From Cytidiella melzeri (taxonomy: Eukaryota > Basidiomycota > Agaricomycetes > Polyporales > Irpicaceae), in assembly GCA_022592445.1 (NCBI GenBank), contig JABYQR010000082.1:1-64000 (forward strand): a DNA stretch of 64,000 nt, in the 5' to 3' direction. Every line of letters starts with the position of its first letter. The stretch's first letter is position 1. A model generated the notes under the pieces. That model worked only from the letters and a program-made list of their open reading frames with translations. It was not told where the DNA came from and did not search any database. This document shows positions 31,701-45,389 of the stretch, piece by piece. The position numbers and the translations under genes were made by a program.

Positions 31701-33835
31701 ACCAGCGAATTCTTGTGCCATATCGACCGTCGACATCCACGTTCCACTGACGCTGGAGATGGATTATCACAAGATTAGCCCAAAGGACAAGTGAGCCAGG
31801 AGAGACTAGCCTATTCGCAACAACGCAAGCGAGTACATATCTTTCCGCCACGCGCCGTTTTTGAATTCCTGCCTCTCCCTCTTTAGAAATACGGGTGAGC
31901 CAGAGGCGGCTTAAGCCTCGGTCATACTCTGCGTGATGAGCCCACTTCAGCTGGGAAAGTAGTGACACTGGCTGAAGGTCGACAGCCTGCATGCACTTGC
32001 TCAAGTATGACGACCAATCGACACGTAGAGCCAAAGTATTAGCCTCCTGATCTTCATTGTCTTGTGGTAACGGCGGGAGAGTATGACCAATGACTTCGCA
32101 GGTAGCTTCGAGAACATAGACCGTAGAAACCCTTCCTAGACTACTGCTTTTCTTGTTGGATAATGAGAACGAAACGCCCCAGATTTCCCCAGCCACAACT
32201 TCTTTAGCGCTGACTATGCTGCCATGAAGCCAATCGTCGTTCCTGGCACCACCTATTGAGACAGTAAACCAGAGTCGCGTCAACAAAAACCTATGGAAAT
32301 CAAATTGAGAGTGGACCTCGTCATGAAGCAAGATCACAACACGATTTTAAACATACCGAAGAGCAATACTGATCTGTCTATCGTCATCAGGGCTGCCCCA
32401 CAACCATTCAGACACAGCGGTCTCAGGGGGGCAGCCCGTGTGCTGTTGAAATGCATCAGCAAGAAATGACCGCATATATGCGGCTTTCCGGTCGGCAGTC
32501 TCCCGTTGGCGAAACCTAAGGTAGGGCCAAAAGTTGGTCGTGGGTGTTGGGTAACTTTCAAGAACCTTTTCCGTTCGTTTCCCTGCGAAATCGTGCTGAA
32601 GGCGGTACTGAGCAGACATATACACTACAAATCGTCAGTAAGTCTATCTCAGCGAGATAGTTCACAAAGAACGAACCTGCATATCGAAACATCTTAGAGA
32701 CAAAAACACATTGTTTACAATCTTCTTCGCTTACTTGACTAAGAATCACAGCCCATCGCTGTACGCGCTTCCTGTGAAGTAGAGGTGGCGGCAAGATGAT
32801 CGAGTGAAGTTGTGGAGCTGAGAGTGAAGCAGAGAATTCAAGGTATGGCATATATAACGCTTGACCTGCTTGTACAAAGGCATCAGCGTCAAAATTCCCA
32901 GTGCCAGAGGCGCAAGCCAAAGTAGGAGCTCTGAGAGCAGTAGTAACGGACGATTTGCCAGGCGTCCTCGAGCGTAGTTTATCCTTCGTTACAAGAGGCT
33001 TGAAGCGTTTCCCAGGTGCGTTGGCTAGGTTCGAATGAATAGCAGTATTCAGAACCGCACGGCTGGATTTTTCCTTCCTTAGAATACTCGACGTTTCTAT
33101 GAACATCTTCGCATTCTCGAGGTGTTCTTCCACGCTAGGAGCAAGGCGAGCTGGTGGTGCTGATGGCAGGGTCAATCGACTAGGTGGGACGACCTTCGCC
33201 TTCTTCGAAGGTACGCGGACTACAGGTGTGGAAGCTCGTTTCATCGGCGCTCCTACGGGTGGAGGAGGAGGCATGGCTGACGAGTCGGAGGATGTTTCCG
33301 AGGTCCATGGCACGGGTACTCGAGAATTAGGCTGAATGTCTGCAGAAAGATCCAGATGTGCTATGACATTCCCTGCAGCGCCTTTAGGTCGAACTGTAGC
33401 AATTGCGGGAAGATATGTAGATGCTGAGGCTGGAGAACGAACGTTGGCAGTGCGAGCTATTGGTTGGTTGCCATGTAAATCTCCTTGGTGAGCAGTAGCA
33501 ATAATAATGGTAGATCGACCATGAAGAGAAGTGGGTAGTAACGCAGTCTTTTTGGCGTTCGTACTCTTGATAATCGGCCGCCCGACTTCGACACTGGAAA
33601 CAGTTGACGTTCCAGATACGGGAGTAGGAGCGTTGTTTGGGTTCAAGGGTGTAGCTGAGCTGGTTGCATTACCTGCCTCTAGGTTGCCAGCAGGAGCGAC
33701 GCCATTAGAGCCAGCTAGTTTCTCAACCAGAGCAGCTTTTCCGAGTTTCGAGTACCCAGATATCTTGCGCTCTTTGCACAGAGCCTTCAGTTGAGCAACA
33801 GTCAACTTCTCGCAATTGACAGTATCGTCCGCCAT
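31693..33835 (-). CDS. SAP-domain protein, conserved fungal type
   Basis: The N-terminus holds a SAP motif, LTVAQLKALCKERKISGYSK, within the first 40 residues of the ATG at 33835; SAP domains bind DNA, often at scaffold-attachment regions or in repair and transcription proteins. An upstream in-frame ATG at 33904 would add 23 residues and is less likely, since it crowds the divergent mL58 promoter. A Ser/Pro-rich middle contains basic stretches (RVPSKKAKVV) that could be nuclear signals. The C-terminal half is well ordered, with SVSEWLW-like and KWAHHAEYDRGLSRLW segments, but I cannot assign it. Introns lie near 32630-32690 and 32290-32355. It ends RWYA at TAG 31693-31695. Confidence 0.7.
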
Positions 33836-34023
33836 ATGGAATTGTATGCGGACTGAGATGGTATGAGTAGCGAGAAGAAAGCGCGAAGAAACGACGGACG
33901 CCATATTTTTGTTGTGGACACTCGCGGTGTCCCGCCTTGGTATCCGGGGTCTGCCTCCTTGATGGCGGCCGCGCTTCGGTACTGCAGGCTCTCAATATTT
34001 CGCACTCATCCCAGCTACAGACA

Positions 34024-34584
34024 ATGTTGGCCTCTGCAGTGATGAAGTCGAGACTTCCTCTGAAACTCACCCTTGCGCGCTCCTACGCGACTCGTCTACC
34101 ACAAAGACCGCCTGCTCGCGCTCCGGACCCGCTGATCAACAACCCTCATGCCACATACGAACCACTTCCTGGTGACCTAACATTCATTCATCGTCCACCG
34201 CCCACTGCACCTGCTCCTGAGTCATACACCAGTCGACCATCGTCACCGCTGTTAATGCCTTCTACAGCAACGACCCCCACAGACGCGCTCCCCCCCGTCT
34301 TATTCCCAGACACTCGAGTACATCCGGAGCGTATGTCACAAGAGGACATCAGAAAAATGAAGGACTTGCGAAAGTCTGACCCATCCACCTGGACAGTGTC
34401 AAAGCTTGCGAGAGAGTTCAAGTGTACCACTCAGTTCGTGAGACTGATGGCTCCCTTGACCCCGTCACAAAGGAAAAAGAAGCAGGCAGCCAGAGATGCT
34501 GAGCATGAGCTACAGCGTGCCCAGTGGGGAGAGAGAAAATCGCTCGCGCGGGAGGTTCGTCAAAAAAGGAGAGATTTTTGGTAG
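34024..34584 (+). CDS. MRPL20: mitochondrial large-subunit ribosomal protein mL58
   Basis: The product of about 187 residues starts MLASAVMKSRLPLKLTLARS, a basic, amphipathic presequence expected to send it into mitochondria. The middle is Pro-rich; the C-terminal half contains RMSQEDIRKMKDLRKSDP, WTVSKLAREFKCTTQFVRLM and a Lys/Arg-rich helical tail, which match the fungal MRP-L20 (mL58) family. The frame is open upstream to 33937, but the presequence favours 34024 or the next ATG at 34051. No intron is needed. It shares a promoter region of about 190 bp with the SAP-domain gene on the other strand and converges on the SET-TAD3 gene. Confidence 0.85.
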   Translation: MLASAVMKSRLPLKLTLARSYATRLPQRPPARAPDPLINNPHATYEPLPGDLTFIHRPPPTAPAPESYTSRPSSPLLMPSTATTPTDALPPVLFPDTRVHPERMSQEDIRKMKDLRKSDPSTWTVSKLAREFKCTTQFVRLMAPLTPSQRKKKQAARDAEHELQRAQWGERKSLAREVRQKRRDFW

Positions 34585-34755: not shown

Positions 34756-36600
34756 TCATGCGTCGACCTCTTCTCCAACGTGCAAATCATCGGCCTTCCA
34801 ATCACTCGCCGTCAACTTCCACCGTCCAATACTGAACCGGTGATTTACTCCAGGAAGCTTGGGTAGACACGCAACACTACCACAGCCACCTGTCTTCTCC
34901 ATAGGAACGAAGTAGATAACCTCTTGAACGCGGGAATGTAAAAGTGCCATCGAGCACATAATACAAGGTTCGTGAGACAAGAAGACGGTCAGGTCTGTGA
35001 GAAGGTAGTGTGCGCCGTTGCATGTCTTTGAGTCATCGTTGTTCGCAACTTCCTTGCCCGCACATGGTGCTGTCGGAATTTTGGCGTGCTGATCTGCAAT
35101 CAACCTGACCAGGTTCAGAGCCGCGTGGCGGAGAGGATGTGATGCGGACACTCGTTTGTCATGTGCTGTAATGGCCTTAGTCACCTGAGTTGCCTGACGA
35201 ACTGCTTCGTCGTAAGGAACTGGGACGTGAGCAACTACAGGGAGCTGCGATAAATGAGCTTCAGCTTTCAGCTACTTGGGAATACAGCAAATACCTCGCC
35301 CTTTGCCTTCACGGCATTTGTTTCATCCATCACGGTACGCATCGCTTCCCACGCCCAGCGGACTTTCGCTCTCGGCCACGGCTCTAGTTCGTGTTTTTTG
35401 CGAGGGGCATAAACCGTAGGCCAAAACATTGTCTTGTGTCGTAATGCAGCTTGGGTCAGTGCTGCGCTTCGGGGCACCTGGAGGACATATGGTGGGTCGA
35501 GACCGATGTCAACAGGTAATTGCGGAACCATAGGCGCAAGCGAGACAGTACACAGCAGCAACGTGGTAGTCGAGCCTGTCTTGCGTATCCGCTTGAGGTG
35601 AGCAAGTGCGTCGTAGTCAGTCTGCTTCAACCACCTGTTCGCGTCAGTTAGGGCAACAGCGCAGTAAATCTCGAAAAAGTCTGACTTACTTCAACATCCC
35701 AGCTGTATACTTTGGGTTGGGAATATCCACAACCCATGCCGGCTCTGCATGTGAACCAATATTTCAGCAATACTCTTCATGACGATGTGTTCAGAACCAA
35801 TACCAGTCTGAACCGCGCTCAATTCATCCTCAGCTTCATCATCCACAAGTCTCAAACGCGTGAACGGAAGCTCATGCTCTGGTACAAGCTCCTCTGGGCT
35901 CCCCTGAAGAAAAGGGCCATTTTTCTCTTCCTCCTGTTGTAAATGAAATAGTCCGCCCCATTCATCCTCTACGGCATCTTCCCTCACAGTACTATCCTGT
36001 TTGTCAACGGGCTCAAACCACAGCGCATGTCCGTAGAAAATGCAAAGCTCTTCGTCGGGCTTGATTCTCCGGGTGGTTGTGTACCTAATTGAATCAATAT
36101 TCGGTTCCAATCTGTACGATATGTTCGGTGTTTGTGAGTGATTAAACAGCGATCCTAATTAATCGTGAAACTAGCGAATTTGCGGTCAAAAAGAAAAGTG
36201 AGCTCACCGAGGCCAAGGGAGAGAGCCATACGACCATCTCTCCATTTGAATGTATAATGGTCCAGCATAGTATACTTGCCATGCTGCTGGTATTCTGAAG
36301 ACGTGAACAAGAGAACTGGGCTAATCTCGATGTCTGTATGTGCTAGAATTTCGCGGGAAGCTGCCATAGAGGTCAGCTTGAGGAGCAGTCAACTAAAACA
36401 GGAACATCTACCGAATACACCTCTTCCTTTCCCTTCCACGTTCTGGATGTAACATCCTGTACTGTTTAGATAGTTTCGCTGAGAAGAAGCAGCATGCTAA
36501 TATGACGTATGGCTGGCGTAAGGGACATCATACAGTATTGTACCGAGTAGAGATTACATACAGCGGGCACTTCGAACTCTAGAGGCTTTGTGCTCTCCAT
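34756..36600 (-). CDS. TAD3: SET methyltransferase domain fused to tRNA deaminase subunit TAD3
   Basis: One spliced reading frame joins two enzymes. The N-terminal part is a complete SET domain: GCYIQNVEGKGRGVF, then SREILAHTDIEISPVLLF, KWRDGRMALSLGLGSLFNHS with the NHS motif, and DEELCIFYGH. After an acidic linker, a phase-1 intron (about 35692-35800) leads straight into PAWVVDIPNPKYTAGMLK and, after a phase-2 intron, WLKQTDYDALAHLKRIRKTG, the N-terminus of TAD3. The deaminase domain has HPLRHAALN, with no catalytic Glu as is usual for TAD3, and the zinc motif EPCIMCSMALLHSR. With TAD2 this subunit converts A34 to inosine in tRNA anticodons. The start MESTKPLEF at 36600 is likely, but the first intron junction is unclear. 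SET substrate unknown. No stop or obvious start separates the parts. Confidence 0.75.
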
Positions 36601-36763
36601 GTCAACTCGTAGAGTTCATACTGGATAAGTTGGTCAAAATGATTACGACAACCTAAATTGGCGGTGCCAGTGGGCTACATGCACAAGGACCCCAGATACT
36701 TGCTTGTTTGTAAGCGCAAGTGCAACTTGACTCCAGACTCTCAAGTCCTCGTCGTGTACGACA

Positions 36764-45389
<8,626 letters not shown>

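Follow-up and report, generated by a model that had tools for sequence, protein, structure and literature searches.

Our analysis of a 64,000-nucleotide stretch of the Cytidiella melzeri genome (positions 1 to 64,000 of contig JABYQR010000082.1, hereafter the window) indicates that a Set7-type SET domain and the tRNA deaminase subunit TAD3 are encoded there as parts of one protein. The reading frame is continuous across both domains, the key residues of each are conserved among homologues, and no second copy of TAD3 or Set7 turned up when the 49.7-Mb assembly was searched in six frames with the full-length protein. We put the probability that the gene makes one bifunctional SET-TAD3 polypeptide, acting as proposed below, at about 0.7. 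The fungus is a polypore in the Irpicaceae (Polyporales).

The gene runs on the minus strand from a start codon at 36600-36598 to a stop codon at 34758-34756 (Table 1). Its seven exons, separated by six GT-AG introns (83, 51, 53, 59, 55, and 50 nt, in order), splice into a frame of 497 amino acids (aa; 56,018 Da) with no internal stop. The product is identical, letter for letter, to the deposited protein P0001 (hypothetical protein BC835DRAFT_1406574 [Cytidiella melzeri]), so the deposited annotation carries the same gene model. This single open frame, along with the domain matches described below, confirms the original prediction of a SET domain fused in frame to TAD3.

The joint between the halves is simpler than that prediction supposed. 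Two introns had been placed between SET and TAD3; introns 4 and 5 instead follow residues 203 and 221, inside TAD3, and the boundary (residues ~134–173) sits within exon 4, which is uninterrupted from the NHS and YG motifs of SET through the LPFTRLRL segment of TAD3. Since the joint falls inside the single exon 35804-36154, no splice is required to connect the two domains, and the case for fusion is stronger than first thought. Methionines occur at positions 1, 67, 80, and 220 and further downstream, with none between M80 and M220; because M220 falls within the TAD3 N-terminal domain, an intact TAD3 cannot be initiated downstream of SET from any AUG in the spliced frame. Among the seven near-cognate start codons checked, the only in-frame occurrence in codons 134–183 is one GTG at codon 143. 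The open frame and these methionine positions bear out the earlier claim that neither a stop nor a good start codon separates the halves.

Open reading frames (ORFs) from relatives support the same exon structure. Five (P0029, P0091, P0095, P0098, and P0103, labelled jgi or lgn) are single ORFs of 478–535 aa that pass each covered intron site with nothing inserted (intron site 1 lies outside P0029 and P0095). Others read through introns at exactly the same sites (P0246 at introns 2 and 3, P0273 at intron 3, and P0148 at intron 4), indicating that intron positions 2, 3, and 4 are common to some relatives.

Conservation was assessed in the best 120 of 484 proteins found at E ≤ 0.001 with the fused protein as query, and counts out of 120 refer to this set unless otherwise noted (in this search and the SET search, scoring was confined to the ~8000 candidates with the most words in common). 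The linker (positions 134–173) is poorly conserved and ranges from 23 to 72 residues across these homologues. In C. melzeri its ~40 residues are mostly predicted to be disordered (residues 137–162), and the predicted structure of the 497-aa protein shows no fixed docking between the SET and TAD3 parts. A disordered linker of variable length speaks for loose tethering.

The SET domain is intact (residues 19–133), with a Pfam SET match at residues 31–128 (E 5e-15, 56.2 bits against a cut-off of 22.4), and contains the KGRGV and NHS..PN motifs and the tyrosine of YG. Its closest relative of known structure is Set7 of Schizosaccharomyces pombe (5h6z, E 6.4e-36 in a single-sequence search, versus 1.8e-7 for the next SET structure, 1n3j). 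A profile search gave 3.8e-58 for Set7 versus 1.9e-14 for the next SET structure; as the profile already contained S. pombe Set7 (P0240) among its rows, this second result is not independent. Identity to Set7 (5h6z, 5ww0) is 50% over 112 aligned residues, with a root-mean-square deviation of 1.8 Å; vSET, the H3K27 methyltransferase of PBCV-1 (1n3j, 3kma), and Plasmodium PFL0690c (4rz0) are more distant (27–30%). The N, H, and Y residues of these motifs are catalytic in SET enzymes, and N91, H92, and Y127 are all kept in 115 of the 120 aligned homologues. The SET half is therefore best described, from its sequence, as a Set7-type lysine methyltransferase domain that is probably active. S. pombe Set7 is a free 147-aa protein, whereas the domain here forms the N-terminus of a 497-aa fusion, so the C. 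melzeri protein holds a Set7-type domain but is no Set7 protein. Searched against NCBIfam, S. pombe Set7 gave one weak, below-cut-off match to another SET protein family, and the Tulasnella protein P0263 gave none. Fused SET domains have a median identity of 50.4% to S. pombe Set7 (117 of the 120; P0005, P0102, and P0117 excluded), and free ones have medians of 47.9% in Serendipita (n=3), 54.5% in Mucoromycotina (n=17 picked), and 54.2% in Mortierella (n=7 picked). This similar closeness suggests that fusion has neither visibly sped up nor relaxed the evolution of the domain.

Residues ~174–497 constitute an essentially full-length TAD3, whose N-terminal domain and C-terminal deaminase fold match solved TAD3/ADAT3 structures (yeast 7bv5, mouse 7nz7–7nz9, and Trypanosoma brucei 8aw3). 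Pfam matches to MafB19-deam (2.7e-7, 31 bits, cut-off 27) and dCMP_cyt_deam_1 (8.8e-6, 26 bits, cut-off 25) agree, and in NCBIfam both P0001 and P0180 matched TadA below the cut-off. The protein shares with the solved chains a tRNA-binding-type domain and a pseudo-catalytic fold that keeps its zinc ligands and lacks the catalytic glutamate; unlike it, those chains cover only residues ~174–497 and have no SET part, so that here a methyltransferase is placed N-terminal to the tRNA-binding domain. The ligands H375, C429, and C432 are present in C. melzeri and in 119 of the 120 homologues. Position 377 is alanine in C. melzeri and glutamate in none of the 120, as would be expected of a catalytically dead partner of TAD2. 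According to the available text of recent studies, Fusarium Tad3 is likewise an inactive partner of Tad2 (by an E-to-V change; PMC11156358, PMC11087585), and the ADAT3 N-domain is required for tRNA binding (PMC8216470). We considered whether LPF (residues 182–184) might be an old Set7 tail motif, given that [LF]PF occurs in 25 of 89 SET-only rows with tails of 15–60 aa in the short-protein SET search. We rejected this idea because the yeast Tad3 alignment starts at residue 174, and LPF is most likely part of the TAD3 N-terminal strand.

Besides five exon matches in the window, the six-frame search returned one TAD2-like match (E 8e-7) and two weak ones to SET (E 0.019 and 0.046); a SET search of the same genome gave 17 exon-level matches. 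The separate TAD2-like gene, at C190 of the same assembly, has an HAE motif and, as a piece joined at a presumed splice, matches ADAT2 at 5.9e-32.

The fusion recurs widely among relatives. Both PF00856 and PF00383 are listed in the precomputed domain column for 120 of the 120 homologues, whose genus names place them, by our reading, in the Polyporales, Russulales, Boletales, Agaricales, Gloeophyllales, and other orders. The database check proposed with the original prediction thus finds SET and the deaminase fold together, its suggestion that related agaricomycetes may share the fusion holds, and the contrary case, in which homologues are always separate genes, did not occur. We rejected a single-species artefact on the same grounds. 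This list is biased toward fusions because the query was itself fused, so two more profile searches were set to lengths that left out most full-length fusions. The TAD3 search gave 856 matches, of whose best 120 a total of 117 were new; the named rows among those listed belonged only to agaricomycete genera. A rough pattern sort of the 117 assigned 37 a SET motif, 33 LPF without SET, 3 the AWVVD strand only, and 44 to shorter or missed sequences, though remnants of SET persist in at least 8 of the 33, and two of the 44 (P0127 and P0182) contain pieces of LPF or SET. Many short TAD3 ORFs begin at the equivalent of the intron 5 end (RWLKQ), as expected of genomic ORFs, and several ORFs of relatives leave the frame just past the equivalent T of the intron 4 site (e.g., P0258, P0307, P0329, and P0334).

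Some deposited TAD3-only models appear to be truncated, judging from two cases. The 323-aa Amanita muscaria model P0171 shares 96% identity with ORF P0180, which extends upstream into SET. In Sistotremastrum, SET model P0247 continues through LPF...AWVVDIPEP into the N-terminus of TAD3, TAD3 model P0227 begins MPDLQHLKR, and the two lie on equally long contigs; we rejected an unfused state here because P0247 runs into TAD3. Pairs of SET-only and TAD3-only models on equally long contigs in Plicaturopsis, Leucogyrophana, Hydnomerulius, Postia, and Hohenbuehelia fit split models. Cerioporus squamosus has two fused proteins on equally long contigs (P0036 and P0040) and a SET-only protein with LPS instead of LPF (P0241), possibly reflecting duplication and a partial copy. 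The 780-aa model P0102 of Marasmius crinis-equi, which combines short-chain-dehydrogenase domains with SET-TAD3, is probably neighbouring genes run together.

The architecture is already in databases, where P0004 is named 'SET domain-containing cytidine deaminase-like protein', and the fusion explains why orthologues carry names as different as 'histone lysine methyltransferase set7' (P0038) and 'tRNA-specific adenosine deaminase subunit tad3' (P0078). Full-text searches of mainly open-access literature found no description of a SET-TAD3 or Set7-TAD3 pair in the text available, in keeping with the earlier statement that no characterised protein with this pair was known, and the available main text of a 2022 survey of fungal SET proteins (PMC9692433) contains neither 'deaminase' nor 'fusion'. 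The protein thus apparently represents two known families in a conserved but undescribed combination. A parallel is offered by the Fusarium Tad2-Tad3-Ame1 mRNA-editing complex, in which, from the text available, another protein also acts at the TAD3 N-terminal domain (PMC11087585); Ame1, in contrast, is not part of the TAD3 chain but a DUF726 protein that binds in trans. Available text of PMC12884345 explains Tad3 as a telomere-associated protein.

In the mechanism we propose, the gene would make one 56-kDa bifunctional polypeptide. The N-terminal domain of its TAD3 part (the C-terminal ~320 residues) would bind tRNA, and the inactive deaminase fold would join TAD2, the product of another gene, in converting wobble A34 to inosine. 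The N-terminal 133 residues, as a Set7-type SET domain, would transfer methyl from S-adenosylmethionine to a lysine, and the linker would tether this domain 1:1 to the tRNA-binding end of TAD3. TAD3 and TAD2 deaminate A34, and TAD3 is essential in yeast. It is also essential in Fusarium, so that production of the ADAT complex would always bring SET with it. TAD2 pairing, tRNA editing, and methyltransferase activity are assigned here by analogy with the known families. Both the methylation substrate, for which histone H3 K37 would be the first candidate by analogy with S. pombe, and any coupling of the two activities are purely conjectural. S. pombe Set7 is reported to be an H3K37 methyltransferase needed for gametogenesis (from a title cited in PMC9145779).

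Several observations weigh against this mechanism. The five clean ORFs look like products of spliced RNA, judging from their continuity; 55 of the 120 fused rows have a methionine after the end of SET and before LPF, so an internal start could yield free TAD3 in those species; and one of N91, H92, and Y127 is absent in five of the 120 (P0005, which looks mis-spliced, P0068, P0085, P0088, and P0113). Fused SET domains also appear slightly more distant from S. pombe Set7 than the picked free ones of Mucoromycotina and Mortierella, and three Serendipita species have a free Set7 of 156–160 aa (P0245, P0250, and P0253). The linker methionines, the several deposited TAD3-only models that begin between the SET end and LPF, and the stage-specific short TAD2/TAD3 transcripts described for Fusarium (in available text of PMC11156358) would all suit a gene that yields free TAD3 and Set7 through alternative promoters, internal initiation, or proteolysis, with the fusion as a precursor or minor form. 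We consider this quite unlikely, given the lack of any methionine between 80 and 220 in the C. melzeri protein, the upstream extension of P0180 relative to its near-identical A. muscaria model, and the finding that both Fusarium FgTAD3 transcript isoforms encode an identical protein (PMC11087585, text available). That annotation merged two adjacent genes, as the separate SET-only and TAD3-only models in several genomes might suggest, is very improbable: the joint lies inside one open-frame exon, the fused architecture is repeated throughout the best 120 of 484, and uninterrupted transcript-like ORFs span the joint.

The main rival to functional coupling is passive co-expression, in which the fusion is real and its halves act independently, one in histone methylation and the other in tRNA editing. 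The join would merely set co-expression and stoichiometry, or would be a neutral accident that the essential nature of TAD3 keeps in place. We give this somewhat better than even odds, an estimate that overlaps with that for the bifunctional polypeptide because both accept one chain and differ on coupling alone. The disordered, undocked, and poorly conserved linker favours it, as does a fused SET median within the range of free ones, while retention of N91, H92, and Y127 asks for SET function and does not discriminate coupling. We also suggest, tentatively and as an unlikely case, that Set7, tethered at the tRNA-binding end of TAD3, regulates ADAT in cis, tying wobble inosine to methyl-donor supply or fruiting. 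It could methylate TAD2/TAD3, a factor bound to tRNA, or histone H3 at tRNA genes, and the tie could extend to other RNAs that are edited in sexual tissue. Basidiomycete A-to-I mRNA editing is disputed: in the text available, a 2020 review reports it for Polyporales (PMC7306014), whereas a 2024 review attributes it to errors (PMC11156358). Of the original interpretation, the conserved tether of SET to TAD3 is supported and the coupling of methylation to tRNA editing is unproven.

The distribution of the single SET-TAD3 chain bears on its origin. The short-protein SET search, whose profile included one stretch of S. pombe Set7, gave 1468 matches (best 120 listed), and free Set7 proteins among the matches listed came from Schizosaccharomyces, many Mucoromycota, Mortierella and its relatives, one chytrid (partial), and the three Serendipita species. 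Tulasnella P0263 passes from SET into LPFERFKF...MQIWATNV, indicating that Tulasnella is fused, and Exidia P0267, which ends two residues past the intron 4 equivalent with a TAD3-like tail, is probably fused as well. In a tree of 45 picked SET rows, 29 (Agaricomycetes, Dacryopinax, and a few others) separate from the rest (97/91); resolution within is poor, with 11 of 42 inner branches starred. Setting the fused label against Serendipita took one change in this tree; the count left out 21 rows and relied on a "fused" label assigned by hand to Tulasnella, Sistotremastrum, and three Auriculariales-type rows. This pattern fits a single origin of the fusion near the base of the Agaricomycetes, with Serendipita having retained or regained a free Set7; its state inside the Agaricomycetes may be either ancestral or a product of fission.

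Table 1 Positions of the SET-TAD3 gene, its parts, and the adjoining intergenic region in the window
Feature	Position	Strand	Basis
Whole SET7-TAD3 gene, coding sequence, 497 aa	34756..36600	-	Stop-free spliced model; identity to P0001
Exon 1, residues 1–13, variable N-terminus	36562..36600	-	Spliced model; predicted local distance difference test (pLDDT) <50 for residues 1–16
Exon 2, SET domain start (KGRGVF)	36412..36478	-	Spliced model, domain search
Exon 3, SET domain middle	36208..36360	-	Spliced model, domain search
Exon 4, residues 87–203: SET NHS and YG, linker (~134–173), first TAD3 segment LPFTRLRL	35804..36154	-	
Intron 4, 59 nt, GTATTG..CAG, after residue 203 within TAD3 N-terminal domain	35745..35803	-	
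Exon 5, residues 204–221 (AWVVDIPNPKYTAGML)	35690..35744	-	Spliced model
Intron 5, 55 nt, GTAAGT..CAG, after residue 221 within TAD3 N-terminal domain	35635..35689	-	
Exon 6, remaining TAD3 N-terminal (tRNA-binding type) domain with HLKRIRK and approach to deaminase domain	35295..35634	-	
Exon 7, TAD3 deaminase-fold domain, H375/C429/C432 zinc ligands, Ala377 replacing catalytic Glu	34756..35244	-	
Divergent intergenic region common to SET-TAD3 and PRP8, 169 bp	36601..36769	.	PRP8 ATG 36770, + strand

The neighbouring PRP8 gene (PRO8NT, 6.3e-86) is divergent from SET-TAD3, and the short gap between their ATGs suggests that they may share a bidirectional promoter. In Irpex lacteus, the fusion model P0005 starts MPGGGGGMPGG..., which resembles the antisense of the window's PRP8 N-terminus; the PRP8 neighbourhood is thus probably kept in Irpex and the start of P0005 probably mis-annotated. 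On the other side, a convergent gene for the mitochondrial ribosomal protein MRP-L20 (1.6e-24; 34024-34584, + strand) ends ~170 bp from the TAD3 stop. Beyond it lies a minus-strand stop-to-stop ORF of 477 aa (32558-33991), a 448-aa piece of which has no Pfam match; by appearance, we take its N-terminus to be SAP-like.

TAD3 is needed for inosine-34, by which one tRNA reads several codons. That apparently the sole TAD3 of C. melzeri is fused to a histone-type methyltransferase makes for a testable claim, namely that methylation of chromatin or protein is physically tied to anticodon editing in mushrooms, and a survey of agaricomycete genes for SET or TAD3 may catch only half of the protein. If the tethered domain does regulate ADAT in cis, mushroom-forming fungi would, in the course of their evolution, have linked anticodon editing directly to protein methylation.
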